A stretch of DNA of 48,925 nucleotides, taken from contig JADGCU010000007.1 in NCBI GenBank assembly GCA_015228785.1, positions 1-48,925 of the forward strand, written 5' to 3'. Under the pieces are notes generated by a model that did not search any database, was not told where the DNA came from, and saw only the letters and a list, made by a program, of their open reading frames with translations. Position 1 is the first letter of the stretch; each line of letters begins with the position of its first letter. Shown piece by piece: positions 14,924-35,375 of the stretch. Both the position numbers and the translations under genes were made by a program. This DNA comes from Candidatus Omnitrophota bacterium. GTDB taxonomy: Bacteria; Omnitrophota; Gorgyraeia; Zapsychrales; Fredricksoniimonadaceae.

Positions 14924-17900
14924 ATGGAGAAAAATATTAAGGGATCCTGTAAGACGGGATCGTTTAAGGCGTTATTGATAGCACAGTTTATGGGCGCGAT
15001 CACGGATAGTTTATTAAAGGTCGTTGTTTCACTTTACGCGATCCAAATATTACTATCCTCCGAGGCTGCGACTCGTGCGGTCAGCATTGTCGGGGTCTTA
15101 TATATTCTTCCGTTTGTGATCTTTTCTCCTTTTGCCGGGCATCTTGCGGATCGTTTCTCTAAACGCATGGTCATTATTGTGATGGGACTGGTTAAGGTTG
15201 CCTTTGCTTTATTGGCGAGTGGGGCTTTGTGGACAGGGAATTTATGGTTCTTGTGCGGAACATTGTTTTTGTTCATGGTGGATAGTGCGCTTTTTAGTCC
15301 TGCCAAGTTTGGCATCTTACCAGAGATGCTTCATGAGGAAGAGCTTTCCAAGGGTAATGGGTATATTCAGCTCGTTACATTTGTGGGGATTATTCTAGGA
15401 ACAGCCATGGGAGGCTTGTTGTTTAAGCCCTTTAATGATCATTTGTATTTTATTGGGTTATTGATGACCTTTTTGGCATTGATCGGTTTCGGGGTGAGTT
15501 TTGCGATCCGTTCCGAGCATCAGGTGTCTGTTAAGTCACAGGGGTTTTTATCAGGGACCTGGAAAGCCTTGGTGGGTATTCGTCATGATACGGGATTGTG
15601 GCTTACGATGCTTGCGCTGGCTTTCTTTAATTTTCTCGGCGCAACTTTTCAGATGAATATTTTGATTTATGGTGCCCATGTCCTTTCTGTCGGGCAGATC
15701 CAGATCAGCATTCTTCTGGTGGCTGTTTCTCTGGGGATCGCGGCAGGAAGCGTTTTGGCAGGCGTAGCGTCTGAAGGGAAGGTTGAGCTGGGACTTGTGC
15801 CGTTGGGGGCCATCGGGATTACAATCATGTCTTTTCTGTTGGGCTTTGGTGGTCACTTTTATGCGGCATTGGCGATGCTGTTTATTTTGGGCGTGTGCGC
15901 CGGGTTTTATACGGTTCCGCTAAATGCCTTCTTTCAGCGATGGAGCCCGACAGAAGAGCGTGGTCAGTATCTGTCGGTCTTGAACATGGTTTCCTCATTC
16001 GGGTCTCTTTTGGCAGGCGGATTCCTATGGTTCTTTGGCGGACAATTGGCGATAGGGTCTGACAAGATTTTTTGGATTGTCGCTGTTTTATCTGCAATCG
16101 CAACAGTTTATATTGTTGTGACATTACCCATTGCTTTGGTGAGATTGGTCAATTGGGTCCTTGCTCATTCGGTCTACAAGTTACGGGTGGTCAATAGCGA
16201 TCAGGTCCCAGAAGAGGGCGGGGCGCTACTTATTGCCAATCATATTTCCTATGTTGATGCGGTTTTGATCCTTGCGGCGTTGAAGCGACCTGTCCGTTAT
16301 ATTATGTACCGCGGGATCTATGATCTTCCTATTATCAATCTATTTTGTCGCGTATTAAAGGTCATTCCGATCGATCGCGATGAGGGTCCTAAGGCGATTG
16401 CTCGTGCATTATTGGAGGCGAGAAAGGCGATCGAGAATGGGGAACTAGTTTGTATATTTCCTGAGGGTGTTCTGACGCGTACAGGTAACATGCTTCCTTT
16501 TAATAAGGGCTTTGAGCACATTATGAAAGGACTGAACGCTCCGATCATTCCGTTGTATCTTGATAACATTTGGGGCAGTATTTATACATTTTCTCATGGG
16601 AAATATTTTTGGAAAATTCCACGGTTGACATTGTATCCGGTGTCGATCGTGTTTGGTAAACCCATGCCCGCGACATCAAGAACCCATCACGTGCGTTTGG
16701 CGGTTCAAGAACTTGGCGCAGAGGCTAATATTTTGCGTGGGGCGTGGCGCAAGAAGCTTCATCTGGCTTTTATTGATGAGGTGAAACGGCATCCTTTTAA
16801 ATTCTGTATGGCAGATTCGATGGGAGCGCGGTTTATTTATTCGAAAGTCTTTGCTGCTGCTGTTGCGGCAGCAAAAGTGTTGTTTCCGGCTGATCGTCGT
16901 CCTAAGGAAACGAATGAAATGGTGGGGGTGTTATTGCCATCTTCATGTATGGCGGCTATTTCTAATATCGCTGTTGCATTTGCTGGAAAGGTTCCTGTGA
17001 ACTTGAATTTTACCCTTTCTGCGGAAGCCTTTGATTCATGTATTAAACAGTGCAATATGAGGATGGTCATCACATCCCGGTCCTTTTTGGAGAAGGCAGG
17101 GATTTCAGTCAGGCCCGAGATGGTTTTCTTAGAAGACATGAAGGCAAAGATTAGCGCTGTAAAGACAGGTGTATATTTTTTGGCTGCTGTTCTTTTTCCG
17201 AGGTGGTTGTTGTGTAATTTGTTTGTTCGTGGTGATAAATTGAATGTGGATGATGTGGCGACGGTCATTTTTTCAAGCGGATCGACGGGTGAGCCCAAAG
17301 GCGTTCTGCTGACGCATGCGAATGTGTTTTCGAACATTGAGAGTTTATATCAGGTCTTTAATATTCGCAGGGAAGATACGGTTGTGGCCGCATTGCCGTT
17401 CTTTCATTCTTTTGGATTCACAGCGACGATGTGTTTTCCCGTTGGGACGGCTGTGGGGGTTGTTTATCACACAAATCCGCTGGATGCCAGCACCATTGGC
17501 AAGCTTACCGAAAAATATAAAGGTACGATCCTTATGGGAACGCCGACATTTATGTCAGCGTATGTTAAGAAGTGCTCGCAAGAACAGTTCGCGTCAGTTC
17601 GTATGGCTGTTGTTGGTGCCGAGAAGTTAAAAGAACCATTGGCCAATGCGTTTCAGGAGAAATTTGGTGTGACGCCATTCGAAGGATATGGGGCGACGGA
17701 ATTGTCACCTATCGTTACTGTCGGATTTCCTAGTTATGTGAATGATGAGACCATGGAGCAGCAGGTTGGACACAAGTTTGGGAAAGTGGGTCATCCGATC
17801 CCAGGGGTTGCTGTTAAAGCTGTTGATCCCGACACGTTCGAAATCAAGGGGCCAAATGAGGAGGGGTTGCTTTTAGTTAAGGGTGCGAATGTGATGAAGG

Positions 17901-18358
17901 GGTATTTGAATAATCCGGGTAAGACGGCAGAGGTCTTGAAGGATGGATGGTATATCACAGGGGATATGGCTACGATTGATGAGGATGGATTTATCAAGAT
18001 CACTGATCGCTTGAGTCGCTTCAGCAAGATTGGCGGTGAGATGGTTCCGCATATCAAGGTTGAAGAGAATATTATGGAAGCGTTGGGGGCGACGGACCCC
18101 GTGGTTACTGTTTCTTCGGTAGCTGATGAAAAGAAAGGTGAGAGGTTGGTTGTTCTTCACGCCGTTGACATGGATGTTGATGCGATGTGTGAATCCTTGG
18201 CCAGAAAAGGAATTCCTAATTTGTGGATACCGAAAAAGGATAGTTTTTATCGTGTTGAGGCGATCCCTGTGTTAGGCACCGGGAAGACGGATCTTAAACG
18301 TGTTAAGGCCCTTGCTCAGGAATTATCGGCAGCAGGCAAAGGAGAGCCCCATGCGTAA
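14924..18358 (+). CDS. aas: MFS transporter-acyltransferase-acyl-ACP/CoA ligase fusion (LplT-Aas type)
   Basis: The protein has 1144 residues in three parts. Residues 1-410 form a 12-helix MFS transporter related to LplT. Residues about 415-610 form a PlsC acyltransferase with NHISYVDA (N439-A446, NHxxxxD) and FPEGVLTRTG. Residues about 625-1140 form an adenylate-forming ligase with SSGSTGEPKG (near 784), YGATELSP (near 921), a WYITGDMATIDEDG segment and GTGKTDLKR. In E. coli LplT flips lysophospholipid inward and Aas reacylates it with ACP-bound fatty acid; the fused form is known in several phyla. It starts 4 nt after the marR stop. The predicted role is inner-membrane lysophospholipid salvage. 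Confidence 0.93.
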   Translation: MEKNIKGSCKTGSFKALLIAQFMGAITDSLLKVVVSLYAIQILLSSEAATRAVSIVGVLYILPFVIFSPFAGHLADRFSKRMVIIVMGLVKVAFALLASGALWTGNLWFLCGTLFLFMVDSALFSPAKFGILPEMLHEEELSKGNGYIQLVTFVGIILGTAMGGLLFKPFNDHLYFIGLLMTFLALIGFGVSFAIRSEHQVSVKSQGFLSGTWKALVGIRHDTGLWLTMLALAFFNFLGATFQMNILIYGAHVLSVGQIQISILLVAVSLGIAAGSVLAGVASEGKVELGLVPLGAIGITIMSFLLGFGGHFYAALAMLFILGVCAGFYTVPLNAFFQRWSPTEERGQYLSVLNMVSSFGSLLAGGFLWFFGGQLAIGSDKIFWIVAVLSAIATVYIVVTLPIALVRLVNWVLAHSVYKLRVVNSDQVPEEGGALLIANHISYVDAVLILAALKRPVRYIMYRGIYDLPIINLFCRVLKVIPIDRDEGPKAIARALLEARKAIENGELVCIFPEGVLTRTGNMLPFNKGFEHIMKGLNAPIIPLYLDNIWGSIYTFSHGKYFWKIPRLTLYPVSIVFGKPMPATSRTHHVRLAVQELGAEANILRGAWRKKLHLAFIDEVKRHPFKFCMADSMGARFIYSKVFAAAVAAAKVLFPADRRPKETNEMVGVLLPSSCMAAISNIAVAFAGKVPVNLNFTLSAEAFDSCIKQCNMRMVITSRSFLEKAGISVRPEMVFLEDMKAKISAVKTGVYFLAAVLFPRWLLCNLFVRGDKLNVDDVATVIFSSGSTGEPKGVLLTHANVFSNIESLYQVFNIRREDTVVAALPFFHSFGFTATMCFPVGTAVGVVYHTNPLDASTIGKLTEKYKGTILMGTPTFMSAYVKKCSQEQFASVRMAVVGAEKLKEPLANAFQEKFGVTPFEGYGATELSPIVTVGFPSYVNDETMEQQVGHKFGKVGHPIPGVAVKAVDPDTFEIKGPNEEGLLLVKGANVMKGYLNNPGKTAEVLKDGWYITGDMATIDEDGFIKITDRLSRFSKIGGEMVPHIKVEENIMEALGATDPVVTVSSVADEKKGERLVVLHAVDMDVDAMCESLARKGIPNLWIPKKDSFYRVEAIPVLGTGKTDLKRVKALAQELSAAGKGEPHA

Positions 18359-21404: not shown

Positions 21405-21868
21405 CAGTTTTTGAGAAGAAAACAATGGCGATCAGTTTGTAGAATTTAGGAATAGAATTCTCAAGAACTTTCTAAAATATTGATAATCAAATATGTACGT
21501 TCTTAATCTCAGTCTTTATAATTTGAAGGCTATTTGTTCTCGAGCATGTTTAGTTTAGGCAGAAACGGGAAAGCTAAATTTTAAATCAATAACAATACAG
21601 AGCCACTTAATGACTTCGGTCAAAAGGTGGCTTTCGTATTTATATAGAGAAATGACGGCTTTCTGATAAGTTTTCATGATGGTTTGTCAAGTCTATGGGG
21701 TCGGTTTTATTAATTTCTTATTTTGAATGAGACAATAAAACGTAAGAAATATAGAGAGTTATAGAAAATCGGGAAATCGTTTTCTTGTTAAGACCCTTAG
21801 TCTGTATTTATTTTATATCTATAGATTATACTTATTCTGGATGGTGGGTCGTTAATCAAGAGGTAAGG
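21405..21868. other. Intergenic region upstream of modular gene 1
   Basis: No coding frame or tRNA was seen in these 464 bases. They hold a conserved UNCG hairpin (21600-21633) and AT-rich DNA. A TTG-initiated upstream extension of the next gene (21785-21868) is open, but it would place 28 non-signal residues before a good signal peptide, so it is treated as untranslated. Confidence 0.5.
21600..21633 (+). ncRNA. Conserved UNCG-capped hairpin, copy 1
   Basis: The stem AGCCAC (21601-21606) pairs with GTGGCT (21627-21632). An asymmetric internal loop follows, then TGAC-TTCG-GTCA (21611-21622). The second copy at 29132-29167 has the same layout, with one C-G pair replaced by T-A. Both are followed by TTTCGT and lie about 235 nt before the start codon of a modular gene. 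It may be a leader element, an attenuator or a weak terminator. Confidence 0.55.
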
Positions 21869-24800
21869 ATGGGAAGAAAGTTTATTAAGAAATTATTCTG
21901 TATATTTACCCTTGCGGCCTTTTTGGCCACGAGTGGGCCTTTGCCTCAAGTTTTGGCCCAGACCATTTCAGAGTTGCCGGCACCGGGAAGCATGGTTTTG
22001 CCCGGAACGAATTTCGCGCCGGTTATGATCAAGGGTTTAACAGTTGATCCTTTGGATCCCTTTGGTTTTGATTTTCTGCTGGATTCCGGAAATGCCCCAA
22101 CAGATGCCCAGACGTTAAAGACCGAATCTCAGAAACTGATCAGGTTTTTTCTGGCAGCGTTAACCATTCCTGAGAGTGATGTCTGGGTTAATTTGTCTCC
22201 GTATGAACAGGATCGGATCATTAGCGATAATTTGTCTCAGACTGAGATGGGGCGGGATCTCTTGTCGCAGGATTATTTGTTGAAGCAGTTGACGGCTTCC
22301 ATGCTTGATCCTCAGAAAAGCCTGGGAGCTGAGTTTTGGGCGCGCGTGTATCAGAAGGTTCATGAGAAATATGGGGATGTGGAGTTGCCTGTTAACACAT
22401 TCCACAAAGTTTGGATCGTTGCTGATTCTGTGGATATTGACGAGAACGAGGGCGGGATTGTCCTTCTTCGTAGCCATTTAAAGGTCATGACAGATCAGGA
22501 TTATCTGGCCCGGGAGAAGAATACGCGTCAGGAGACCGGTGATGCGCAGGAGATGTCCCGAGTTAATGACATTTCAACAGGGATCGTCCGAGATATTATT
22601 ATTCCTGAGGTTGAAAAAGAGGTGAACGAGGGGGCGACCTTCGCCCGTTTGCGACAGATTTATCATGCGATCATTTTAGCAGCTTGGTATAAAGAGAATC
22701 TAAAACAAACTTTGTTGGCTTCTTCCTATGTGGACCATTCTTTGGTGCGGGGGATTGAGCTGGATGATAAGGCCACTAGTCGGAAGATTTACGACCGATA
22801 TGTGGAGGCGTTTAAGAAAGGTGTTATTGATCTTATTAAGGAGGATGCATCTTCTGGAGCGGGAGAGGCCATGCCTCGCCATTATTTCTCGGGAGGGATC
22901 AATATTCATCCTCGGCCGATCCTTCAACAGGCCCGGGAGCGTCTGAAGCGGGCCCCTGTAGATCGTTCACAAGTTGAGTTCGCCATGAATGGAGCGCCCT
23001 ATCATGTGGAGTGGCGCGCATTGCCTGTTGAGGACAGCCAATTGTCATCCAGAGCCAGTGAGTTGGCCAGGCAGGCATTTAAGTTACCTCAGGCGATTAG
23101 AGATATGGTTGTGAAGGATGTGCGAGTGAAGCCTTTGAATAACTATACAGGAAAAAGCATGACCTGCCTCTGGTTGACCCGGTTCTGTCCGGTTGGGTGT
23201 AAGCATTGTTTTTTTGCTTCTCCTAAACCTCGACGGCCAACAGAAGATGACGCGTTCACCCCGGAGGGGATGACCAAGCTCGTTAAATTCTTGAATGATG
23301 CCAACACAGGGTATCTCCTGGTTTCTGGCGGAGGGGATCCCTTTATCGAGTTTGACGGGGTGCGCCGGATTCTGGAGGAGGTTCATTCTGATACTGTTTG
23401 TTTGGTCACAAGCGCTTATTGGGCGATGGGGCAAAAGCATATGGACCAGACTCTTGATCGTTTGTTGGCGGCGATTGAACATCGTCGATCGACAATGAAG
23501 AACCCGGGGAAGATCATTTTGCGGGTTAGCATCGACAAGGAACATGCGGAACAGATCAATCGCGGGTCTCTGAGTAAGGGGCCGTACATCAATTTGATCA
23601 AGGCGTTTCAGGCACGTGGGATCAGTCCGGATGTTCTTGAGTTGCAGATCCACACTTTATTTGGGGATACTACGGTGGATGATTTATTGTCTAATTTTAA
23701 AGTTGTGAGTCGTGAGGTCTCGGAAACCCGCGACGTTGATCAGGTCATCGCGACTACTGTGCCCGATGAGGATAAGGATAAGCCGATCAAGATTTCTGGT
23801 AAGAAAGTAAAAGTTGAGCTTGAGGGTGGGTTGAAGCTTACAGTAGGTTATGCCAAGCATTTTCACTCTGATACCAAGGTTGACTTGAGTGATCCAGTTG
23901 TCGTTGCGCGTAATAGTGAAGTCTTTGATCTTGATATGCAGAAGAATCATCGTGATAACCCGGGGGTTGTTTATTCGTCTGGTGGCAGTTTGGGGCTTAA
24001 TTTCGGGATTAGTTATGATGGGAAGGTACGTATATGGGCAACGGAATCGCCTGACAGGCTATATAACATTAATCGTCATGAGCATCAGGAAATTGTTGAT
24101 GGGACTTTCGAGGATATTATTTCTTTGGCTGTGATCGAAAAAGGGTTGTCTTATCGGGATAGCATTGTTGCCGAAGTGAATCCGCGGGCGGTCATAAGGA
24201 CTAAGGCGAAGAACATTCGGGATTTCATTGGTGAATATATTAATGAAGAGGCGCGTACTCGGATGTACCTTTCCGTTCGTGTTATGCAGGATTATATGAC
24301 GGAAGGCCGGATCACGGATGAGATGGTCGCTTCATGGCCGGAAGAATTACGGACGCTTGTAGCTATGACAAGAGAACAGCTGATGGAGTTTTACAATACA
24401 TCTGAGCATTCGATCATTGATGATTATTTTTCGAGCCCTGACTGGAACGTGGATTCTCTTGTCAGGTTGTATGAATTGACAATAAAAGGGCATTATGATG
24501 TGAAACCGGAAAGGCTCAAGGAGTTCATTCGCAACACAGACCGCCTATCGCGTCTTCAGAAAGCTGAGTTTCTTTTAAAGACAGTTCGGTTATCGTTGGG
24601 CTTGTTGATCCAGACCAAGGCTTTTGAACTTTCCAGTCTTGGTAAGGCATTGCAGCAAATGGATCGTTCTTTTACAGCGGTCCTGGCTGAGCATTTTGAG
24701 CGGGCGGATCCCATCCTCAGTCAGTACATGGTTGCTTTGAGGACAATGGCATTGGCTTTTGCTCATAACGATCTACCCTCTTTAGGATCCAGGATTTCGT

Positions 24801-26065
24801 TCGCTGCTCAGGGGCAACACGCTTTACCTGGATCGCCTGCGAATTTCTTTGCGATCATGGCAGAAGAGGGCAATCGTGATCGTCCAGTTGTGATAAATGA
24901 GCTTGTGACGCGTGCAGAGATTTCGTCAGGTTCAGTTGAAGCGGATATGCGTGTTTTGCGCGCAGCTGGTTTAGTGGAAAGAGAGCTTGTCGGTGGGGTC
25001 CCGGTTTTTCGGCTTTCTCCTTTCTTAAGGACCAATGAGGGGCTGTTGGGTCGACTGCAGGAGAAATTGAATGAGGTCTTTCAAGAGAACCAGATTGTTC
25101 AGAATGTATTTGGCATCGAGCATAGGGCAAGAATTGTCAATGCCCTGCTTTTAGAGATCGAGAGGGATCCAGCCGCATCCCTGCAGATTGATACGGCCGT
25201 CTTGCGAGAGGCAAATAGGGAGGCGGTGATTAGATCCAGGGCATTTAGAAGTTCAGCAAATCGTGAGCTGGCCGTCCGTAAAGACAGGGAGGAGGCTGTG
25301 GGGGTGTTGATATCCCAGGTTCAGCAGATCGCTGATCAATGCGTTGACAGACAGGAGCTTTTGTTGAGGGTTCTCTCTAGAAATTTGAGGATGGGAGAGG
25401 ATGTGCGGACCATGGCGCGTTCGGCGGTGCACAGTATTGTTGAAGTTCACGGGCATGGGGCGCAGGAACCTATTCGGGTTGCTTTTGTACAGATGCCAGA
25501 AGTTAAGACCGTTTATGCCACACGGCAGCTGCTTAAGCTGTATGGGATCCAGGCAGAGTTTGTCGTTTTTGACCGTGACCAGAAACAACTTTCAAAAATG
25601 AAGCGCCTGGACCCTCATCAACAAGTCGCACTTATTGGATCAGATGGCAGTATCCAGGCACCCCAGGGTTCTTTTGATGTCGTATTGGCATCTGAGCAAG
25701 GGAATGATGTGTATCCGCAGGTAAGTCCTGCCCGGCAAGTAGCGGCAGCGATCAGGAATCCATCGTCCCGGCTTGTTGTGTATGCGCCCGGGGCAGTCGA
25801 GGTGTTGGACACGGTGGCCGGGGTTAATCTTAATACGGGAAAGATGCCCCTCTTGAGCGCTGATCCGGTGAATGGTGGTATTGATCTTGATCTCAAGTAT
25901 CTGCGTCGTAACACGAGAGGTCATTATGAAGTAAGGGTTCCTAGTCATTTGTCTCCCAGGTTTGGTGGTCGATGGATCGGGGTCAGTCCGGTTATTATGA
26001 GCATTGCACCTGTCAGTGAGCCTGGTATCTTCTTAGAGAAGGCTATGGGCTATTCACGAAACTGA
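21869..26065 (+). CDS. Modular exported protein 1: chassis N-domain, radical SAM, winged helix, GGID tail
   Basis: The protein has 1398 residues from the ATG at 21869. A Sec signal peptide (1-30, VLAQ) leads to the shared N-terminal domain (about 32-343, ending RHYFSGG) and a junction box VEFAMN (369-374). A radical SAM domain follows: CPVGCKHC (C440, C444, C447) binds the [4Fe-4S] cluster, and SGGGDPF resembles the SAM-binding GGE motif. A helical region, a winged-helix-like segment (about 1005-1070) and a Rossmann-like segment (about 1210-1320) precede the shared tail (1336-1398, GGIDLD...PVIMSIAP). Radical SAM enzymes are normally cytoplasmic, so a signal peptide here is odd. The target is unknown. 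Genes 2 and 3 of the family follow directly. RBS AGAGGTAAGG. Confidence 0.87.
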   Translation: MGRKFIKKLFCIFTLAAFLATSGPLPQVLAQTISELPAPGSMVLPGTNFAPVMIKGLTVDPLDPFGFDFLLDSGNAPTDAQTLKTESQKLIRFFLAALTIPESDVWVNLSPYEQDRIISDNLSQTEMGRDLLSQDYLLKQLTASMLDPQKSLGAEFWARVYQKVHEKYGDVELPVNTFHKVWIVADSVDIDENEGGIVLLRSHLKVMTDQDYLAREKNTRQETGDAQEMSRVNDISTGIVRDIIIPEVEKEVNEGATFARLRQIYHAIILAAWYKENLKQTLLASSYVDHSLVRGIELDDKATSRKIYDRYVEAFKKGVIDLIKEDASSGAGEAMPRHYFSGGINIHPRPILQQARERLKRAPVDRSQVEFAMNGAPYHVEWRALPVEDSQLSSRASELARQAFKLPQAIRDMVVKDVRVKPLNNYTGKSMTCLWLTRFCPVGCKHCFFASPKPRRPTEDDAFTPEGMTKLVKFLNDANTGYLLVSGGGDPFIEFDGVRRILEEVHSDTVCLVTSAYWAMGQKHMDQTLDRLLAAIEHRRSTMKNPGKIILRVSIDKEHAEQINRGSLSKGPYINLIKAFQARGISPDVLELQIHTLFGDTTVDDLLSNFKVVSREVSETRDVDQVIATTVPDEDKDKPIKISGKKVKVELEGGLKLTVGYAKHFHSDTKVDLSDPVVVARNSEVFDLDMQKNHRDNPGVVYSSGGSLGLNFGISYDGKVRIWATESPDRLYNINRHEHQEIVDGTFEDIISLAVIEKGLSYRDSIVAEVNPRAVIRTKAKNIRDFIGEYINEEARTRMYLSVRVMQDYMTEGRITDEMVASWPEELRTLVAMTREQLMEFYNTSEHSIIDDYFSSPDWNVDSLVRLYELTIKGHYDVKPERLKEFIRNTDRLSRLQKAEFLLKTVRLSLGLLIQTKAFELSSLGKALQQMDRSFTAVLAEHFERADPILSQYMVALRTMALAFAHNDLPSLGSRISFAAQGQHALPGSPANFFAIMAEEGNRDRPVVINELVTRAEISSGSVEADMRVLRAAGLVERELVGGVPVFRLSPFLRTNEGLLGRLQEKLNEVFQENQIVQNVFGIEHRARIVNALLLEIERDPAASLQIDTAVLREANREAVIRSRAFRSSANRELAVRKDREEAVGVLISQVQQIADQCVDRQELLLRVLSRNLRMGEDVRTMARSAVHSIVEVHGHGAQEPIRVAFVQMPEVKTVYATRQLLKLYGIQAEFVVFDRDQKQLSKMKRLDPHQQVALIGSDGSIQAPQGSFDVVLASEQGNDVYPQVSPARQVAAAIRNPSSRLVVYAPGAVEVLDTVAGVNLNTGKMPLLSADPVNGGIDLDLKYLRRNTRGHYEVRVPSHLSPRFGGRWIGVSPVIMSIAPVSEPGIFLEKAMGYSRN

Positions 26066-26159
26066 TGGAATTGTTAAGGGATATATTTGTTAATCAATTT
26101 GTTTATATGTTATGTTTAAATTACGACTGTGACATTAAGATGTATCCAGGAGGGTCCTT

Positions 26160-28988
26160 ATGCGGCTAATAAAGTCATTTAATGTTCTCGTTAATATCAT
26201 GATTGTTGTCTTTGTTATTCAGACAATATTCATGCCAGTGGCACTTGCTCAAGGCGCTTCAACGGTCTTGCCAGGTTCTGTCTCTGTATCGGGAGAAACG
26301 TTTAAGCCGCTGATGCTTCAGGGAGTTAACATTTATCCTAATGACCCGTTTCTTTTGAAATTCATTGTTAATCAGGGTGATTCTCGGGTTTCTGATGAAG
26401 ATCTTAGGAAACAATCAGAGCAGTTAATTAAGTATTTTCTGGCTTCTTTGACTGTTCCTGAGAAAGAGATGTGGGTTAATTTAAGCCCCTACGAGAAAGA
26501 TAGGATCATTCCTGATGGGTTCGGTAAAACTACGATGGGGCACGATTTGTTGGCGCAGGACTATGTTCTTAAGCAAATGGCCTCCGCGCTCATGAATCCG
26601 GAAAAAGAGTTAGGTCAAAAATTCTGGAGTCAGGTTTACAGCAAGGCCAAGGAACAGTTTGGTACGACAGATATTCCGTTGGATACATTTAACAAAGTTT
26701 GGATTGTTCCTGAAGGAGCTGTGATCTACGAACACGAAAAAGGCGCTCTTATTATTAAAAGTCATTTGAAGGTCATGCAGGAAGAAGATTATCTGGCATT
26801 GGAGGCCAATAAAAACAGCACCGAACATGGGTTGGGCAGCGTCACAGTGGAAGACCTTAAAAAAGGATCCACATTCTCCTCAGCGATCATGAGGGAGATT
26901 TTTATACCTGAGATCACACGGGAAGTGAATGAAGGGAAGGCCTTTGCGAACTTACGGCAGATCTATCATTCTTTGCTTCTGGCGAATTGGTATAAAAAGA
27001 GGTTGCAGGAAAGTTTGCTAGCTAAAGTTTACAGTGATAAGTCCAAGACAAATGGGGTGCATATTCCTGATCCAGCGATGAACAAAAGAGTTTATGAGCA
27101 ATACGTTTCTCAATTTAATAAAGGGGCGTTTAATTATATTAAAGAAGATGTGGATCCTGTCACACAGGAGATAACGCCAAGGAAATATTTCTCCGGCGGG
27201 GCAGATTTCACGCATGAAGCAGCGATGATCGTTAAGAAAGTCGATGGGAAATTGCCTGATGGCGAGTTTTCCGCTGTTGATGCCAAGTTGGCTCTGAGCA
27301 GGCGGAGTTTTCTTAAATTCTCGGGAGCAGCAGTCCTTGCGGCTTTCGGATTAGGAGCGCCATTAGCCAAGGCGGGAGAGCCGGTTGCCGCAGCGGCTAA
27401 GGCCGCTGCGCTGAAGCCTACTTATAGTTATCCGCCGGAATTAGCATTATTTGGTGAAGGGCTTGTCCCTAGCGGCCTTACCAAGGGATTGCCTTTAAAT
27501 TATGCGGGAGAAGAGGCGTTCCCTAATCCCTCCTGGACGAAAACAGGAACCAAGATGTCGGCGGTTCTTGAGTTTGGATTGATCCAGCAGCGGGAGCATG
27601 GGGATTTTACCATTATTAATTCTCTTGTAGCCCAGTCTGGTAAGGATGGACTGTTCTTTTTCAGAGGTAACAAATATTTTGCTTTAAATGACAGTGGGCG
27701 CAGAGTTTCTGTGAGAGGGCTCCCTCTGGAGTTGGTGCGGACAACGAATCGAACGGCTAAAGATAAGTGGTGGGAGACCTGGGATTGGGGTGTTAATGTC
27801 GCTGATGCTTCGGATATGATCAATTTGGCAATTGATGCTTATAACAGAACCACAAATGCAACGTATAAGAAACGATATCTTGCGTTTGTTAAGAGGTTGG
27901 CGATTACGTTGACATTGCTTCAGGATAAAACTAATGGCGGGCTGCGATATGGCCCCATGGGAGTATATTATTTTGATCCTCAGACAGGGAAGGTTGATTC
28001 TAATTATTTTTATAATTTAAAGACAACAGAATCAAACTTAAGAGCTTTGTATGCGTATCTTAATTTGTATGATGTGACACAGGATCAAAGGCATTTGGAC
28101 GTAGCGCTTAATATTTGGAAGTGGTTAATAGGGATGTATAACGGCGGCGCTGCTGTCTTTCATGAGGCGGAGAAGTTTTATTCTGCTGAGTGGGAAAAGA
28201 CTCCTCTTGGAACGGACCAGGAACAATTTAACACAATGACAACAGCCTTGGCGCCGATTTCTTTAATGCTATACAGTAACAATCGTAATGCCAGGGCAGC
28301 TTTTGGCGGTACTCTGGAAGAACGGATAGCGGTGGTTGAGGAAATGCTGGCAGCGACCAATAGACGGGTCGCTTTTACTGATCAGTATGGGGTGGCTGGA
28401 TATGCGCGCTCTGGTGAGGAGGCCGGGCACAATATGTTATCACCGGCTGTAAGCAGTGAGATGGCCTTGTTTCTTCTTGAGCTTTCCGCGTATTATCAGG
28501 ATATAGACGCGACGAAGGCTGCGGAATACAGAAGACAGTATGCGCAATTGATGGGGAATATAGGTTCTTTCTTTGATGATTATAGAGGAGGCCGAAGGAT
28601 TGCGCCAGATGCGATAGATGTAACAACTGGAGGAGCCGCCCCTCGGTCAGTAGGATGGACGGCGTCTTTGTCTTCAGGCACAGCATTTTCCAGGGCTCAA
28701 AAGGGGGGAGATTATGCGTTGCCAGGTGGATGGAATGGAGAGGTTCCAGAAGAACAAGCGATGATTTCTTCTCCTTCGGGGAATGTTAATAGTTATGGTG
28801 GTATCGATTTGAATCCGGCCATTGGGAATACAAAAATTGAACGCAATACAAATGGAATAGTTATTCCGGTGGCAGCGATCAATAGTATCGATGCGCATAT
28901 TTTAAGCGGGAATTTCACTGGATTCACGCCGGTCATTCAAAAGACGTTCTCTGTGGCTGATCTATCGACACTTGTGGGGACCAAATAA
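26160..28988 (+). CDS. Modular exported protein 2: chassis N-domain, internal Tat motif, toroid-like enzyme, GGID tail
   Basis: The protein has 942 residues. An N-terminal Sec-type signal or anchor (about 8-30, ALAQ) is followed by the shared N-terminal domain (about 31-347, ending RKYFSGG). The junction KLALS runs straight into a textbook twin-arginine signal: SRRSFLK (380-386), a hydrophobic core and an AKA cleavage-like site near 406. Residues about 430-800 look like an alpha/alpha-toroid, glycosidase-like fold (DMINLAIDAYNRT, TTESNLRALYAYLNLYD, WKWLIGMYNGG); the exact family is not recognised. The shared tail covers 880-942 (GGIDLN, GFTPVI). It lies 94 nt after gene 1, with a CAGGAGGG RBS. 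The internal Tat motif may be a relic of fusion or a working second export signal. Confidence 0.86.
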   Translation: MRLIKSFNVLVNIMIVVFVIQTIFMPVALAQGASTVLPGSVSVSGETFKPLMLQGVNIYPNDPFLLKFIVNQGDSRVSDEDLRKQSEQLIKYFLASLTVPEKEMWVNLSPYEKDRIIPDGFGKTTMGHDLLAQDYVLKQMASALMNPEKELGQKFWSQVYSKAKEQFGTTDIPLDTFNKVWIVPEGAVIYEHEKGALIIKSHLKVMQEEDYLALEANKNSTEHGLGSVTVEDLKKGSTFSSAIMREIFIPEITREVNEGKAFANLRQIYHSLLLANWYKKRLQESLLAKVYSDKSKTNGVHIPDPAMNKRVYEQYVSQFNKGAFNYIKEDVDPVTQEITPRKYFSGGADFTHEAAMIVKKVDGKLPDGEFSAVDAKLALSRRSFLKFSGAAVLAAFGLGAPLAKAGEPVAAAAKAAALKPTYSYPPELALFGEGLVPSGLTKGLPLNYAGEEAFPNPSWTKTGTKMSAVLEFGLIQQREHGDFTIINSLVAQSGKDGLFFFRGNKYFALNDSGRRVSVRGLPLELVRTTNRTAKDKWWETWDWGVNVADASDMINLAIDAYNRTTNATYKKRYLAFVKRLAITLTLLQDKTNGGLRYGPMGVYYFDPQTGKVDSNYFYNLKTTESNLRALYAYLNLYDVTQDQRHLDVALNIWKWLIGMYNGGAAVFHEAEKFYSAEWEKTPLGTDQEQFNTMTTALAPISLMLYSNNRNARAAFGGTLEERIAVVEEMLAATNRRVAFTDQYGVAGYARSGEEAGHNMLSPAVSSEMALFLLELSAYYQDIDATKAAEYRRQYAQLMGNIGSFFDDYRGGRRIAPDAIDVTTGGAAPRSVGWTASLSSGTAFSRAQKGGDYALPGGWNGEVPEEQAMISSPSGNVNSYGGIDLNPAIGNTKIERNTNGIVIPVAAINSIDAHILSGNFTGFTPVIQKTFSVADLSTLVGTK

Positions 28989-29392
28989 TTCCGTATGTGG
29001 GATGCTTAAATGGTTGTTTTGATCGACTCATATGTTGGCGATAGTGGTAGGATCCCCAGTCAGGAGGAGTGAGGTTTTTCTTTACAATCCTATATTTCGT
29101 TGGGGATGGTTTTAGCTAGCTATAATCATATAAAGCTACTCAATGACTCCGGTCAAAGGGTAGCTTTCGTGTTTTATGGGGAGGTTGGTCTTTCTTGAAG
29201 TCTGCTTTGTAGGATTTGATAAGAGGGTGAGCATTCTTGCGTTATGTCGCCGGATTTCTGGGTGTAGAGAACGAGAATATACTTAAAGTTCATTCTTTGT
29301 TAAAAACGGCAAAGAGATAGATTATATGTTACTCTTTTATAGAGTGGATATCTATCAGACTGAAATGGCACAAAATCTTCTTTAAGGAACGA
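28989..29392. other. Intergenic region upstream of modular gene 3
   Basis: No gene was found in these 404 bases. They hold a TATAAT box (29121-29126) and directly after it the second copy of the conserved UNCG hairpin. The remaining ~225 bases before the start are AT-rich, without a clear further structure. Confidence 0.5.
29121..29167 (+). ncRNA. Conserved UNCG-capped hairpin, copy 2, with adjoining -10 box
   Basis: AAAGCTAC (29132-29139) pairs with GTAGCTTT (29160-29167), enclosing TGAC-TCCG-GTCA (29144-29155). TATAAT at 29121-29126 would start transcription at about 29133, so the hairpin would form the very 5' end of the leader. A -35 TTGGGG is only 15 nt upstream of the -10, so the promoter is tentative. 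See copy 1 at 21600. Confidence 0.55.
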
Positions 29393-32300
29393 ATGTTGGG
29401 ATCGAACTTTTATTATTTCTGGAAAAGATCTGTTCATCTTATTCTTATTTTCTCTCTTTTATTCAGTCCGGCCTCTGTTTATGCCCAGAGTGCTTTTGTT
29501 TCTACGCTTCCTGAACCAGGCAAGATGATCGAACAGTCATCTGTGTTTGTGCCTGTCCTTGTGAGAGGTCTGGCCGTCCATCCTGAAAAACCGCTTTATT
29601 TTGAGTTCCTTGTTGATTCTGGCAATGATTCCTCAGACCAGACGGTTATTAAAGAGCAAGGCGAACGCATTGCTAAGTATTTTCTTGCCGCAGTGACAGT
29701 TCCCGAGGAACAGCTTTGGGTGAATTTGTCCCCGTATGAGCAGGATCGGATCATTGATGAAGGCTTGGGGCAGACTGTTCTTGGTCGGGATATGTTGGCT
29801 CAGGATTATGTTCTTAAGCAGTTGACCTCATCGTTGATCTATCCGGAGAAAGGTTTGGGGAAGGATTTCTGGGCAAGGATATATCAGGAAGCTCAGGATA
29901 AATTTGGAACGACGGATATTCCTGTCGATACCTTCAATAAGGTTTGGATCATGCCTGAGAAGGCAGAGGTGTTTGAAAAGGGAAATGCTGTTTACGTGAC
30001 GCAAGCCAAGCTTAAGGTGATGTTGGATAGTGATCGCCTGGCCATGGCGAAGAATGAATCCGATGCTGTGTCTAATGAGAAAGCGGCTTTTACCAAAGCA
30101 CTCATGCGCGAGATCGTTATTCCGGCTATTGAGCGCGAAGTTAATGAGGGAAGAAATTTTTCGGTCATTCGCCAGGTTTATTATGCGGCGATCCTGGCCA
30201 AGTGGTACAGGGAGCGCATTCAAAATACGCTTCTTGCTGATGCGTATGTGGGCAAGAACCGTGTTGCGGGGGTTCTTTCTGATGAGAAGGCGCTTAAGGA
30301 AGAGATCTATCAGCGTTATATTGCGGCGTATAAGAAAGGGGTTTTTAACTATATCAAGGATGACGTTAATGCGCAGACGGGGGAAACCCTTGCGCGTAAA
30401 TACTTTTCCGGTGGCGTGGCTGATTTTGGATTGAGGGATATCCCGTTATCGCGGGCCGGTGAATTGGCGATGGCAGGCCGTAGTGTAGGCGAGACTTTTA
30501 AAGTTGAATTGGCCATGTCAGCGGGAGGCATACAGAACAGCAGCGTACCCGTTTGGTGGCGTGATGTGGGAAAAACGCAGATTGTGATGTCATTGCCGGT
30601 GTCAGCGTTGCGACGGGAAAAGAATGATGCCGGCATTGGTAAGTTTACAGACTTGCCTGTCTTTTACCGTGAAGCGCATAGAAAACAGGGAGTGACGGTC
30701 TTAAATCTTCTTCCGCATTACGCTATTGCGTACGAAAGTCCGTATGCGCCGGTGTCTTTGTATGCCTTGAATGAAGATAATATCGATTGGGGTTCTGCGA
30801 TCAAGATGCTGTCTGTCGATGGTCGGTCGATATCGACTCTGGCAAGCCCGGATAAACAGCGTGAGATTGATTTTCAGGATGTTCGTCGTCGCGAGCATGA
30901 CATTGCCGGGAAAGTTTATGATCTTTTTAAAGAGCGACATATAGATCGAAGAACAGACCTTGCCCTGGAATTCGAGGCATTTATTTCCGGATCAACGCGA
31001 TTAGGTCGGGAGCTTCAATCATATGCGCAGTTTATGGCAACGCATGAAACAGGTAAGAGCGGGAAGAATGTGGAGGTGCATCTTTTTGCCCAGTGGCTTG
31101 CGTATCGGCAGCTGAAGGAGGCTCTTGCTGATATCCATGCTGAGGGTGGGCGTGTTATTTTTGATGTACCCTTTTTTCGTGGCAAGGATGGGGTGGATGT
31201 CCGGGAGCATCCGAAGTATTTTCGTGATGTGAAGGACAAGTCCCCGGGCTTGAACAAGCCCTGGGCCAAGTTTAGCTGGCAGGATTTAGCTTTATGGAAC
31301 TGGAATGCGGTCAAGGAGAACGATTTCGAGTTCATTACGGCGCCGTTTCGTCACTGGTTGGATTTCGGATTTGACGGGGCGAGGCTTGATGCCATTCATT
31401 TCGCTTACGACATTGGCCAGGATAATGCTCTGAATGAACCGGGTGACGCGTTGGTGGGCGTGTTGGGCAAGTTGTTCAAGGATCGAAACGCCTTTGTGGT
31501 GGCGGAAGCTTTTGAGGGAATGAAAGATAAGGTTGAGCGTCATGGCATTTTGGCTATCGATGGAATCTTCAAGCGACTGAGCACTCATGATGATAATGTC
31601 CGGCGTTATCATGAAAATGGAGCTAATTTCAACAAGGATTTCTTGAATGCCCGCAGAGAGGATGCGAACAATGCTGAGACGTCCGGGTTTATAGGGGTTA
31701 CGATCGGGGATCTTGAGGGGGATGATCGTCCGATCAAGATAGAGAAGGACGGAAGTTCTTACTGGCGTTATCGCATCCCGATGCCGCAGGACCCTGATTA
31801 TCAGAAGCGTGCGGGTGTTGATCAGGGGGCTTTTGTGGAGTTTCATACGCAAGCTCATCCCCAATATTATCGCCAGGCTGTTCCGGTCCTCGAAGATCCG
31901 CCGGAGGTCTTGGCGCTTGTTCGGGATATCTTTAATACGACCGCGGATTCTTTTATCAAGCATTTCAACAGGAACGGTGCCGAGGTCGTTGAGATATGGG
32001 CGGCCAGCCGCGACTGGTTTTTCGAGCAGTGGGGGCGTGATACGTTTATCGCTTTGCCCGGAACCTTGCTCGCAACTGGGCGTTTTGAGGAGGCCAAGGC
32101 TGTCATACGAAGTTTTGCGAAGTTTGAGAAAGATGGCCTGATCCCTAACCGGATTCCGGATTCTCAACACCCTGAGTGGAATGAGTACAATACTGTCGAC
32201 GGGCCGATGTGGTTTATTGCTTCAGTTAAGAAATATTTGGAATATACGGATGACCAGGAGTTTGCTGTTGAGATGTTGCCCGTCGTTCGTCGCATTCTGG

Positions 32301-33517
32301 CGGCGTATGAAAAGGGAACAGGATTTGATCAGCATAAGCACATTAACGCGGACCCTAAACAAAATGTCCGGCGCATTGCGATGGATTCCAACGACAAGCT
32401 CATCATCAGTCCTTCTCAGGCAACCTGGATGGACGCAGATCCGCATGGACACGGAGCGGTCACGCCTCGAAATGGAAAGGCGGTTGAGATCAACGCCCTG
32501 TGGTATGCGAATTTGAAGTTTCTGACAACCCTGTTGTCAAAAGCCCGGGATTCTTTGCCGCCTGAGGCCCCTCAGTTTGACGGGATCAAAGACGTCAAGC
32601 GGGAGATCAGGAGACTCGAGAAGTTGGCAGGGGAGGTCAAAGAAAGTTTTAATGCTAAATTTTGGAATGACCGTTTATGGACCGATGGTTCTGGGAAGAT
32701 CGAGAATTGTCTTTTTGATGTCATTGAGGGCGATCCGCATGGCGGCGCTGTTCGCCCCAATATGATTTTTGCTGTTAGTCATGGTGAAGATCTGCTTTCC
32801 TCAGATAGACAGCAAAAAGTCCTTGAAGCGGTTACGAATGACCTGCTAACCCCTAAGGGGCTGCGGACGCTCTCTCCCAGGGACCGTCCGAATTATAAAT
32901 CTTTTTACGATACGGACAGCCAGCCTTTCCCGGGAGAACCGATGTTTTATAAACACAAGGATTATAGTTATCATCAGGGAACGGTTTGGCCGTGGTTGAT
33001 CGGGGCTTATGTGGATGCGACGGTCCGTGTCATGCGTGATCAGGGAAAAAGTACTGAGGAGATCCGCTCCCGGGTCAAGGATATTCTGTCACCGCTTGTT
33101 ACAGATCTTTTGAGCATGGGGTCTTTACATGAAGTTTACGATGCCGAACCTCGTCAGGATGGACAGCGTCGTCCTGGCGGGACTTCATCACAGACCTGGA
33201 GCGTGGCGGAAGTGTTTCGCCCTTTAATGGAATATGGAATTCTTCCTGACTCGAAGAGAGAATATTTAAGTAGCGGTCAGGAAAAAGCGCAGGCAATTGA
33301 TACCTCGACGGGTGGTATTGATATCCAGAATATTAATGTGACGCAAAGTCGGTCTTCAGATGGTGAGAAGATCAAGTTTGACAGCAGTGCCCTGCGTGAA
33401 TTAATACAAGATGGTTTTAATGGTTTTACGCCGGTGATCATTAACATTACGCCGATCCAAAATCCTTCGATCTTTCTTGGTGTTAAGCAAGCGGATTTGA
33501 TAGAGTCGAAAGTATAA
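29393..33517 (+). CDS. Modular exported protein 3: chassis N-domain, GH13/77-like plus GH133 debranching domains, GGID tail
   Basis: The protein has 1374 residues. A Sec signal (1-31, VYAQ) and the shared N-domain (about 32-341, ending RKYFSGG) are followed by the junction VELAMS (371-376). Residues about 385-800 form an alpha-amylase-superfamily barrel: SLYALNEDNIDW, the nucleophile region DGARLDA (D666), VVAEAFEG (E705, likely acid/base) and STHDDN (H732-D733). Residues about 845-1290 match the amylo-alpha-1,6-glucosidase (GH133) domain: GRDTFIALPG, LIPNRIPD, TWMDADP, VTPRNGKAVEINALWY, LRTLSPRD, YHQGTVWPWLIG. A glucanotransferase-like plus a glucosidase domain echoes eukaryotic-type glycogen debranching enzyme, but with an export signal. 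The tail is 1307-1374 (GGIDIQ, GFTPVIINITP). RBS AAGGAAC. Confidence 0.9.
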   Translation: MLGSNFYYFWKRSVHLILIFSLLFSPASVYAQSAFVSTLPEPGKMIEQSSVFVPVLVRGLAVHPEKPLYFEFLVDSGNDSSDQTVIKEQGERIAKYFLAAVTVPEEQLWVNLSPYEQDRIIDEGLGQTVLGRDMLAQDYVLKQLTSSLIYPEKGLGKDFWARIYQEAQDKFGTTDIPVDTFNKVWIMPEKAEVFEKGNAVYVTQAKLKVMLDSDRLAMAKNESDAVSNEKAAFTKALMREIVIPAIEREVNEGRNFSVIRQVYYAAILAKWYRERIQNTLLADAYVGKNRVAGVLSDEKALKEEIYQRYIAAYKKGVFNYIKDDVNAQTGETLARKYFSGGVADFGLRDIPLSRAGELAMAGRSVGETFKVELAMSAGGIQNSSVPVWWRDVGKTQIVMSLPVSALRREKNDAGIGKFTDLPVFYREAHRKQGVTVLNLLPHYAIAYESPYAPVSLYALNEDNIDWGSAIKMLSVDGRSISTLASPDKQREIDFQDVRRREHDIAGKVYDLFKERHIDRRTDLALEFEAFISGSTRLGRELQSYAQFMATHETGKSGKNVEVHLFAQWLAYRQLKEALADIHAEGGRVIFDVPFFRGKDGVDVREHPKYFRDVKDKSPGLNKPWAKFSWQDLALWNWNAVKENDFEFITAPFRHWLDFGFDGARLDAIHFAYDIGQDNALNEPGDALVGVLGKLFKDRNAFVVAEAFEGMKDKVERHGILAIDGIFKRLSTHDDNVRRYHENGANFNKDFLNARREDANNAETSGFIGVTIGDLEGDDRPIKIEKDGSSYWRYRIPMPQDPDYQKRAGVDQGAFVEFHTQAHPQYYRQAVPVLEDPPEVLALVRDIFNTTADSFIKHFNRNGAEVVEIWAASRDWFFEQWGRDTFIALPGTLLATGRFEEAKAVIRSFAKFEKDGLIPNRIPDSQHPEWNEYNTVDGPMWFIASVKKYLEYTDDQEFAVEMLPVVRRILAAYEKGTGFDQHKHINADPKQNVRRIAMDSNDKLIISPSQATWMDADPHGHGAVTPRNGKAVEINALWYANLKFLTTLLSKARDSLPPEAPQFDGIKDVKREIRRLEKLAGEVKESFNAKFWNDRLWTDGSGKIENCLFDVIEGDPHGGAVRPNMIFAVSHGEDLLSSDRQQKVLEAVTNDLLTPKGLRTLSPRDRPNYKSFYDTDSQPFPGEPMFYKHKDYSYHQGTVWPWLIGAYVDATVRVMRDQGKSTEEIRSRVKDILSPLVTDLLSMGSLHEVYDAEPRQDGQRRPGGTSSQTWSVAEVFRPLMEYGILPDSKREYLSSGQEKAQAIDTSTGGIDIQNINVTQSRSSDGEKIKFDSSALRELIQDGFNGFTPVIINITPIQNPSIFLGVKQADLIESKV

Positions 33518-33772: not shown

Positions 33773-34723
33773 ATGTTCAGAGATAAGATCAAGGTTCTGG
33801 ATTGTACGATAAGAGATGGCGGACTTATTAATGATCACGATTTTGATGTCCGCTTTGTACGTGAGGTTTACAAGGCTGTTTCTGCGGCCGGTGTTGATTA
33901 TATGGAGATCGGCTATAAGAATTCGAAGAAACTGTTTCCGGCCAAGGATTTCGGGATCTGGAAATTTTGCGATGATGCGGATATTCACAAGGTTATTGAC
34001 GGGATTCCTTCTAAGACCAAGATTTCGGTCATGGTTGATGTGGATCGTGTCGATGTGGATGATGTGCTCCCTAAGAAGGATAGCCCGGTCAGTATGGTCC
34101 GTACGGCGTGTTATGTGAAGGATGTGGATAAGGCGATCCACCTGGCTAATCAGTTTTCTGCCAAGGGATATGAGACAGCAGTGAACCTTATGGCCATTTC
34201 ACGTGCTTTGGACAATGAGCTTACCGAATGCCTGCATCAGCTTGAGGAGGAGTGCAGGGCGAATGTTATTTATATTGTTGATAGTAATGGCGCGCTTTAT
34301 CAGGAGACAACAGAGTTTTTGATCAAGAAGGCCAAGAGCATTCTTAAATCCAAGGAAGTCGGGATCCATGCGCACAACAATCAGCAGTTGGCCTTCGGCA
34401 ATTCGATTGAGGCGATTATCCACAATGCCAATTATGTGGACGCAACGGTTTACGGCATGGGGCGCGCTGCGGGCAATTGTCCGCTGGAACTTATGTTGGG
34501 ATTCTTGAAGAATCCGAAATATGATATCCGGCCGATCCTGGATTTGATCTCCAAGGAATTTATTCCTCTTCGGGAGAAATTGGAGTGGGGGTATATTATC
34601 CCTTACGCGATCGCAGGGATTTTAGATGAGCATCCACGTGCTGCGATCGCATTGCGCGAGAGCAGTGAGAAGGAGAATTACCGCGAATTCTACGAGAGCC
34701 TTGTAGGAGAGGTTGAGGAATAA
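33773..34723 (+). CDS. HMGL-like (DRE-TIM) aldolase/carboxyltransferase-family protein
   Basis: The protein has 316 residues. It shows DRE-TIM metallolyase motifs: DCTIRDGG (D10-G17) at the first strand, VDYMEIGYK, IVDSNGA, the metal-binding HAHNN (199-203) and VDATVYGMGRAAGN. Its closest relatives appear to be aldolase-catalytic-domain proteins akin to 4-hydroxy-2-oxovalerate aldolase, some of which lie in polysaccharide or nucleotide-sugar clusters. It probably makes or splits a 2-oxo acid; the exact substrate is unknown. The KDPG-type aldolase gene follows 1 nt after its stop. RBS AAAGGAGAG. Confidence 0.87.
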   Translation: MFRDKIKVLDCTIRDGGLINDHDFDVRFVREVYKAVSAAGVDYMEIGYKNSKKLFPAKDFGIWKFCDDADIHKVIDGIPSKTKISVMVDVDRVDVDDVLPKKDSPVSMVRTACYVKDVDKAIHLANQFSAKGYETAVNLMAISRALDNELTECLHQLEEECRANVIYIVDSNGALYQETTEFLIKKAKSILKSKEVGIHAHNNQQLAFGNSIEAIIHNANYVDATVYGMGRAAGNCPLELMLGFLKNPKYDIRPILDLISKEFIPLREKLEWGYIIPYAIAGILDEHPRAAIALRESSEKENYREFYESLVGEVEE

Positions 34724-34724
34724 G

Positions 34725-35375
34725 GTGGACGTTGCACTGTTTAAGAAATTACCGATCCTGGGGATCATACGAGGTATCGGGACAAAAGATCTTGAGCCTT
34801 TGCTTGAGACTGTTGAGATGTCCGGTTTAAAGACAATCGAGATTACCATGAATACCGAGGGTGCGGCCCGACTGATCAGTCGGGCCGTTTCCTTATCTGG
34901 TAAGCGTTTGATGATTGGCGCGGGAACGGTCTTGAATATGTCGAGTCTAAAGAGTGCGCTTGATGCGGGGGCCTCTTTCATCGTGATGCCCGTTCTGGTC
35001 AAGGACGTCATGGCTTATTGTGTCAAGCACCGGATCCCTGCTTTTCCTGGCGCTTTGACACCCCAGGAGATCCATGCGGCCTGGCGTGCTGGCGCGACCA
35101 TGGTCAAGGTTTTCCCCTCGAGTGTTTGGGGGCCGAAATATTTCAGTGAGATAAAAGGGCCTTTTAATGATGTGGAGCTCTTGGCGTGTGGTGGGGTAAC
35201 AGCTCAAAATATGGGAACATATTTCTCCAGTGGCGCAGATGCTGTCAGTTTCGGGTCGAGCGTATTTAAGAAAGAGTGGCTCGAGCAGGGAGATTTTCGA
35301 AAGATCGGTCGGTCGATAAAAGGATATATTCATGGATTTAAATCGCGGAATCCAGCGTTTCCTGTTTCTTTCTAA
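34725..35375 (+). CDS. eda: KDPG/KHG-type 2-keto-3-deoxy aldolase
   Basis: The protein has 216 residues, read from the GTG at 34725 with GAGG 7 nt upstream; a TTG at 34713 would overlap the previous gene. Class I KDPG aldolase motifs are present: LPILGIIRG, the catalytic EIT (Glu39), GAGTVL, the FPGALTPQE loop, the Schiff-base lysine in MVKVFPS (Lys128) and CGGVT. The family splits 2-keto-3-deoxy sugar acids to pyruvate and an aldehyde. No dehydratase or sugar kinase gene is adjacent, so an Entner-Doudoroff role is not shown here. Confidence 0.88.
   Translation: MDVALFKKLPILGIIRGIGTKDLEPLLETVEMSGLKTIEITMNTEGAARLISRAVSLSGKRLMIGAGTVLNMSSLKSALDAGASFIVMPVLVKDVMAYCVKHRIPAFPGALTPQEIHAAWRAGATMVKVFPSSVWGPKYFSEIKGPFNDVELLACGGVTAQNMGTYFSSGADAVSFGSSVFKKEWLEQGDFRKIGRSIKGYIHGFKSRNPAFPVSF

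Follow-up and report, generated by a model that had tools for sequence, protein, structure and literature searches.

Modular exported proteins of Omnitrophota as candidate polyproteins with a lineage-specific linker motif

Three consecutive genes in the genome of a Candidatus Omnitrophota bacterium raise the question of why unrelated enzymes should be built between the same front and back modules. The genes lie on the plus strand of contig JADGCU010000007.1 (assembly GCA_015228785.1), at 21869..26065, 26160..28988 and 29393..33517 of a stretch of 48,925 nucleotides that was analysed as a whole and is referred to here as the window. Each gene encodes a signal peptide, a homologous N-terminal domain (N-domain), a middle of its own and a homologous C-terminal tail that begins with GGID (the GGID tail). 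The original prediction described this layout as an interchangeable cargo system for export, display or assembly, and that reading is partly supported. We are highly confident that the three proteins belong to a Sec-exported, modular family centred on Omnitrophota. A linker motif that was absent from the original prediction directs attention to cargo separation rather than to display, and the family looks like an apparently undescribed way to export enzymes as one chain that is then cut apart. The explanation that we favour, and hold in roughly even balance, is that these are exported mosaic polyproteins whose linkers are cut to free separate enzymes.

An exported, modular protein family

The N-domains of the three proteins (21959..22897, 26250..27200 and 29486..30415) are 44% identical in each pair, over 327, 338 and 340 columns (E 8e-96, 7e-93 and 3e-93), and the near-identical blocks quoted in the original prediction are invariant or almost so. 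The N-domain regions have no Pfam or NCBIfam match, and a comparison with PDB sequences returned no match up to E 1. The N-domain of protein 3 alone gave a confident predicted structure (predicted local distance difference test score, pLDDT, 86; predicted template modelling score, pTM, 0.86). Foldseek searches with an N-domain model reached a best E of 0.39 in PDB and 0.039 in BFVD (probability 0.08), and both best matches had a probability of at most 0.13. The original prediction knew of no characterised system with this layout, and the Pfam, NCBIfam and PDB searches agree; neither they nor Foldseek make the N-domain part of a known enzyme family.

The N-domain is not limited to the three genes. 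In the genome that holds the window (123 contigs, 82% complete; the home genome), an N-domain profile that includes the window genes gives 25 match rows in 22 open reading frames (ORFs), four of the rows being one ORF. At 1e-10 the N-domain is matched in 136 of the 384 genomes sampled across the phylum. Among those listed from the same order or closer, 59 have a match and 2 have none, and full scoring of six family members yielded 7 to 56 match rows per genome, fragments included. A scan of genome contigs confirmed 498 stretches and kept the 80 best; absence beyond Omnitrophota is not shown by it, and 77 of its 78 loci are titled Omnitrophota (one as Zapsychrus). The link to Omnitrophota drawn in the original prediction holds in these scans. 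The 78 loci carry 112 N-domain ORFs, 88 of them complete, which are called the relatives below. The complete relatives have 681-2819 residues, the home proteins have up to 3332, and the longest N-domain frame among the matches listed, which were capped at about five per genome, has 6160. The one locus of the 78 with another title (L115) is an N-domain gene in a record named Candidatus Elulimicrobium (Patescibacteria in the NCBI taxonomy), which may be a misnamed bin or a case of transfer. Three IMG/VR contigs (L333, L334, L335) encode an N-domain with 48-53% identity and are possibly bacterial contigs filed as viral. In the genome with 56 match rows (G087) the N-domain genes are clustered, several within 20 kb (L253-L258). 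Three home proteins (L038, L044, L039) have in-frame low-complexity inserts of similar sequence within their N-domains (TLDVGR..TSD..RLTSD in L044 and different repeated stretches in the other two), which resemble a dispersed coding repeat.

The GGID tail, GGID followed by 59-64 residues, ends all three window proteins (25874..26062, 28797..28985 and 33311..33514), as the original prediction had it. Pairwise likeness is weak (28.9 bits, E 0.004; 27.3 bits, E 0.006; for proteins 1 and 2, 19.2 bits, not significant). A 51-row tail profile matches all three (E 8.9e-8, 1.8e-13 and 1.3e-18) and contains these same tails, so the stronger evidence is that a tail of the same kind ends 83 of the 88 complete relatives. 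Sixteen of the 18 home N-domain ORFs with a stop codon in the examined sequence also carry it (L026 and L044 do not), and seven further tail matches lie in home ORFs without an N-domain, five of them open at a contig end and one a 123-residue fragment. A much shorter, GGIDL-type tail stands right at the C-terminus of distant N-domain proteins (L317, L328, L330, L331).

Between these modules the cargo varies widely. Clustering of 134 proteins, some truncated, gave 95 cargo clusters, which bears out the exchangeable middles of the original prediction. Named cargo includes radical SAM proteins with or without a B12 domain, methyltransferases, PP2C, GNAT, HATPase, starch or glycogen synthase, LpxC, UDPGP and phosphoglycerate kinase (PGK). 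Pfam scans found no match after the N-domain in 10 of the 19 other home proteins (E up to 0.001) or in 23 of the 30 scanned relatives (E up to 0.0001), which were chosen from the 112 at roughly even steps of length. In the window itself, the radical SAM middle falls under its cut-off, the toroid-like middle is only hinted at and the debranching-like middle is strong. Gene 1 (1398 residues if read from the ATG at 21869; a TTG at 21785 opens the longest ORF) has a signal peptide at 21869..21958, with cleavage placed by eye after ...QVLA, and its N-domain covers residues 31-343. Its radical SAM/Fer4_12 region (residues 457-561, 23237..23551) scores 25.8 bits against a Pfam cut-off of 29.5 for radical SAM, with a CxxxCxxC motif seen by eye, and 23.5 bits for Fer4_12, which is above that family's cut-off; the protein also has a long unassigned region. 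Protein 2 (942 residues) has a GH76-like toroid segment at 27822..28127 (E 0.0019, below the Pfam cut-off and a hint only). Protein 3 (1374 residues) joins a glycoside hydrolase family 77 (GH77) region (residues 401-553, 30593..31051, Pfam E 1.3e-21) to a GDE_C amylo-alpha-1,6-glucosidase domain (residues 864-1276, 31982..33220, E 1.6e-95), that is, glycogen-debranching cargo.

Export is indicated by the front of the chains and by the composition of the remainder. A crude test of our own, with a threshold set after seeing the data, found a signal-peptide hydrophobic core in 126 of the 127 proteins to which it was applied (106 of the 107 relatives tested, from 112, and all 20 home proteins tested, from 22), with a small-x-small site after the core in 125. 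After the N-domain, cysteine makes up 0.105% of residues. The corresponding figures are 1.10% for 492 mechanical control ORFs, 0.75% for the 36 of them that have a crude signal peptide, and 1.53% for 32 other genes of the window. The cargo is thus about ten-fold poor in cysteine, which suggests a place outside the cytoplasm. Among the cysteines left are those of the radical SAM clusters in L110 and L115. The signal peptide accounts for the first step of the proposed export, display or assembly system; nothing was found that shows display or assembly, and it is not established that the two modules themselves perform any of the three.

PGK offers a closer view of the cargo. Eight distinct embedded PGKs, examined from ten genomes with PGK in a frame of more than 1,000 residues, all lie within N-domain ORFs, and for each of them the genome also encodes a PGK of its own outside the chain, a partial one in G115. 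In G110, PGK was found only as pieces in or beside a long frame. In an alignment of nine rows, two of which are one gene, R37, H61, R120, R153 and K199 are kept in all nine and D21, N23 and R64 in eight; D352 is replaced by N in two rows and K203 is kept in six. We take these to be active-site positions, and the embedded PGKs are probably active. Eight of the nine rows have no cysteine, where 27 stand-alone PGKs have a mean of 2.1. The idea of dead cargo is rejected or at least weakened by the retention of most active-site residues, exceptions included. The idea that the cargo is the cell's only copy fares no better in view of the separate PGKs, with the GDE_C of gene 3 as an exception: it was the only one found in the 82% complete home genome. 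One genome of 64 has both an embedded and a separate LpxC; L045 carries LpxC cargo as well.

A linker motif and its dialects

A short motif, ExAM, recurs in the home proteins outside the folded modules. With tails removed (29,175 residues), the home proteins hold 75 ExAM where 4.2 are expected and 1 DxAM where 3.9 are expected. Whole home proteins hold 78 ExAM against 5.2 in shuffles, in which the maximum of 200 runs was 11. The 32 other window genes have 1 against 1.6 expected. The sites lie at module borders: ExAM occurs within 100 residues after the N-domain in 16 of 21 home proteins (shuffle mean 0.4) and within 60 residues before the tail in 8 of 17 (shuffle 0.24), and it also stands between cargo modules. 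Permuted motifs occur at the same place in 0-1 of the 21 home proteins. In gene 1, EFAM (residue 370, 22976..22987) marks the junction of N-domain and radical SAM cargo, and EKAM (residue 1390) lies at the extreme end of the tail. Gene 2 has EAAM (residue 353, 27216..27227) between N-domain and cargo and EQAM (residue 865, 28752..28763) between cargo and tail, and gene 3 has ELAM twice (residue 357, 30461..30472; residue 372, 30506..30517).

The motif is, as judged from its reading frame and codons, selected at the protein level. None of 56 sites in 17 proteins falls inside a Pfam domain, against 10.2 expected; one of these sites starts on a domain's last residue, some of the domains are weak matches, and the domain list was selected after seeing the data. 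A DNA-level element is rejected or weakened as an explanation, in that the motif is almost always in frame (78 home sites, against 2 in another frame and 3 on the other strand) and its codons are varied despite a lean of the alanine codon to GCG. The 78 sites show 60 distinct 12-mers.

The spelling of the motif differs between lineages. Relatives with tails removed (96,582 residues) hold 145 DxAM where 12.3 are expected and 11 ExAM where 13.4 are expected; DxAQ (50 against 22.2) and DxSM (26 against 9.4) are also raised. A combined form, D.[AS][MQ], selected after seeing the data, follows the N-domain within 100 residues in 65 of 104 relatives (8.1 shuffled) and precedes the tail within 60 residues in 41 of 88 (4.2). 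A recurrent linker motif outside folded modules is found in the home genome and in about half of the relative genome groups. The difference is already present within the genus: five loci of a genus mate (G299) have 5 DxAM and 0 ExAM, and six of its whole ORFs have 5 DxAM, 4 DxAQ and 1 ExAM. For six home sites an orthologue alignment was available. At three of them the orthologue's D stands in the column of the home E (ELAM/DWAA, EMAM/DLAQ, EKAM/DLAS), and at a fourth a DAAQ is shifted by one column. Home DxAM after the N-domain numbers three, two in tails (DPAM) and one in the cargo of L036. A third spelling, SSP, appears in 19 distant ORFs with 52 occurrences against 4.8 expected, together with 0 DxAM and 2 ExAM; 44 of the 52 lie in six ORFs of four genomes, and seven of the 19 ORFs have none. 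The groups JAGLQN (SSP 8 against 0.3) and DPIG (4 against 0.2) resemble these genomes. SSP is slightly raised in the pooled relatives as well (39 against 14.2), including genomes with DxAM, for example JAKFXC (5 against 1.1).

One reader per genome is the simplest cause of such dialects, the spelling being clear only in part of the genomes. Lineage-specific spelling points to a single trans-acting reader of the linker code, which we consider likely; that this reader is a protease we consider somewhat more probable than not.

Cleavage, docking or cytoplasmic cargo

Under the favoured reading of cut linkers, the chain would cross the inner membrane by its Sec-type signal peptide, and a dedicated protease of the cell would recognise the motif and cut the linkers. 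The N-domain, every cargo enzyme and the tail would then be released as separate proteins. The N-domain and tail would be carrier parts for folding, retention or delivery, and the cargo would be the payload, at work beyond the cytoplasm, either in the envelope of the producing cell or inside a cell that serves as prey or host. Because one reader would serve every chain of a cell, the motif would drift in concert (E in the home species, D in most relatives with a clear spelling, SSP in some others). The evidence for export and for modularity is good; that the linkers are cleaved, that an enzyme of the cell does so and where the products go, to its own envelope or to prey, we infer.

Several findings weigh against this account. 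No cutting protease was found, and cleavage itself is inferred. Signal peptidase I, which might have supplied a cutter in an extra copy, is rejected or weakened in that role, as the number of its copies is unrelated to the presence of the system: among 10 genomes with the N-domain, 8 have one copy and 2 have two, and all 10 genomes without the N-domain have one. The spellings overlap to some extent, as the SSP counts in DxAM genomes show. With tails removed, 20 of the 39 relative genome groups have at least three DxAM and 8 have none, and in JADFWS the D form occurs together with at least 3 ExAM. Of the 21 relatives with enough sequence, 10 have DxAM as their top [DE]x[AGS]x motif, or 13 when DxAQ and DxSM are counted. 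Two of the six aligned home sites have no counterpart in the orthologue (one lacks such a residue, one falls in a gap), and the alanine codon at home sites is skewed to GCG (60% against 34%). The original prediction had also proposed a model of the N-domain together with the tail; the full-length model of protein 2 is poor (pLDDT 51), with a tail of three short strands and a helix. Radical SAM and B12 enzymes normally require a reducing cytoplasm. Giant Omnitrophota ORFs, compared below, are low in cysteine too (0.10-0.38%), and two of them have DxAQ 4 times against 1.7 and 4 times against 1.3 expected.

Second signal-like stretches poorly fit a simple one-step export and belong among these objections. 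Such a stretch lies within 150 residues after the N-domain in 12 of 125 proteins, or 0.096 against 0.031 per 150 residues elsewhere. A stricter, earlier hydrophobicity test gave 5 of 129; it was relaxed for the later one, and the thresholds of both were set after seeing the data. At least one of the 12 (L046) resembles a P-loop instead. These stretches could be remnants of exported proteins that were captured, or could serve in sorting once the cargo is released; either would account for them.

A tentative alternative, which may yet prove right, is that the motif is a docking signal for a receptor, scaffold, secretion channel or chaperone, and that the string of enzymes stays intact, displayed or tethered. 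Several linker motifs per chain, each with three fixed positions, would suit multivalent docking, and a lineage-specific spelling requires one reader, not necessarily a protease. Docking does not, however, need a motif on both sides of modules and shortly before the tail, and no receptor was found, though no search aimed at one was made. The data separate docking from cleavage weakly.

It is unlikely that the cargo is cut off before export, to stay in the cytoplasm or leave by a signal of its own, so that the signal peptide exports only the N-domain. Radical SAM proteins, PGK, LpxC and glycogen synthase are enzymes of cytosolic type. Protein 2 carries a signal of the twin-arginine translocation (Tat) type directly after its N-domain (residues 379-399, 27294..27356), above the NCBIfam cut-off (TIGR01409, 20.6 bits against 16.7), and TatC was found in 22 of 24 family genomes. 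In several proteins second signal-like stretches stand directly after the motif, for example in L053 and in the home proteins L039 and L040, and a lipobox-like core follows DPSM in L052. Against a cytoplasmic location stand the cysteine depletion of the cargo itself, embedded PGKs included, and the fact that PGK and, in one genome, LpxC are already encoded separately. Very unlikely is the remaining explanation, that these are ordinary secreted multidomain paralogues with biased or copied linkers and a functionless motif: paralogues could bring a linker along and the alanine codons lean to GCG, but shuffles that keep composition give 5.2 for 78 and 0.4 for 16, permuted motifs reach 0-1 of 21, 60 of the 78 12-mers differ and the home tails with DPAM retain D.

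The cut-linker reading has a delivery variant, which we regard as unlikely, in which a predatory or parasitic lineage sends second-copy metabolic enzymes into another cell as exported polyproteins. A dedicated protease would free the PGK, LpxC, glycogen synthase/debranching, radical SAM and methyltransferase modules, and its cut-site code would have diverged genome-wide between species (ExAM, DxA[M/Q], SSP). Payloads with a signal, Tat or lipoprotein sequence of their own would be sorted by the machinery of the receiving cell. Delivery to another cell is considered mainly because a predatory lifestyle has been proposed for Omnitrophota (PMC10066038; PMC13153191).

Comparison with known systems, and neighbouring genes

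The proposed architecture shares traits with several known systems. Viral polyproteins processed by 3C-like proteases carry a short, fixed motif at their module junctions, one position of which takes a long unbranched residue. The Omnitrophota proteins likewise have an inter-module motif with M or Q at one position; they differ in being cellular genes at many loci. Substrates of type IX secretion have a signal peptide in front and a conserved C-terminal domain (CTD) module of about 65 residues. The signal peptide and the GGID tail of about 65 residues resemble this arrangement; the comparison with CTD models went as far as the general library scans.

MARTX toxins are long exported chains whose several effector domains are separated by proteolysis (PMC3153235). 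Both are multi-module exported chains, although separation by cutting is only a proposal here. The Omnitrophota proteins differ in their Sec-type signal peptide, an N-domain without a family match, many genes per genome and named cargo in which metabolic or regulatory enzymes predominate. Their linker motif also varies with lineage, which suggests a separate reader, unlike MARTX. No protease family, the internal cysteine protease of MARTX type included, was found in the Pfam scans (the three window proteins at E up to 0.1, and the parts after the N-domain of the 19 other home proteins and of 30 of the 112 relatives at the limits given above). The same scans found no RTX family; type I secretion genes were not searched for.

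The giant ORFs of Omnitrophota (PMC10066038) are also very long and cysteine-poor, belong to the same phylum and in some cases hold GDE_C cargo. The criterion for a giant ORF is more than 20 kb (about 6,670 residues), a size that none of the N-domain frames listed reaches. Three giant frames (among L336-L343) have GDE_C inside 8,679 (G071 C26), 22,400 (G155 C8) and 6,784 residues (G270 C36). DxAM is not enriched in them (one frame has 4 against 4.0 expected, one has 0 against 1.1 and one has 1 against 0.7). The N-domain and tail were not found in these frames, N-domain absence being shown for the longest only and tail absence for the other two, because contig ends cut into all three, two at the 5' side and the third at the 3' side. 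The giant ORFs as members of the same system are rejected or weakened as a candidate, given DxAM counts at expectation and a module absence that is partly shown.

Searches of an open-access library returned nothing recognised as this system, and no paper on polyproteins in Omnitrophota. If the cut-linker reading is true, a bacterial order routinely exports tens of unrelated enzymes as polyproteins, otherwise mainly a viral habit. The genome-wide change of the linker code would then record the co-evolution of a protease (or receptor) with its substrates, and some of the large, so far unexplained proteins that Omnitrophota export would gain a common frame.

Other genes of the window are of separate interest. 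Immediately downstream of the three genes lie an HMGL-like gene and a KDPG/KHG aldolase gene (33773-35375). A single ORF at 14924-18358 encodes a fusion of an MFS transporter, an acyltransferase and an AMP-binding enzyme. An [FeFe]-hydrogenase with NuoG-like iron-sulphur domains and a thioredoxin-like [2Fe-2S] end is encoded at 902-2920.

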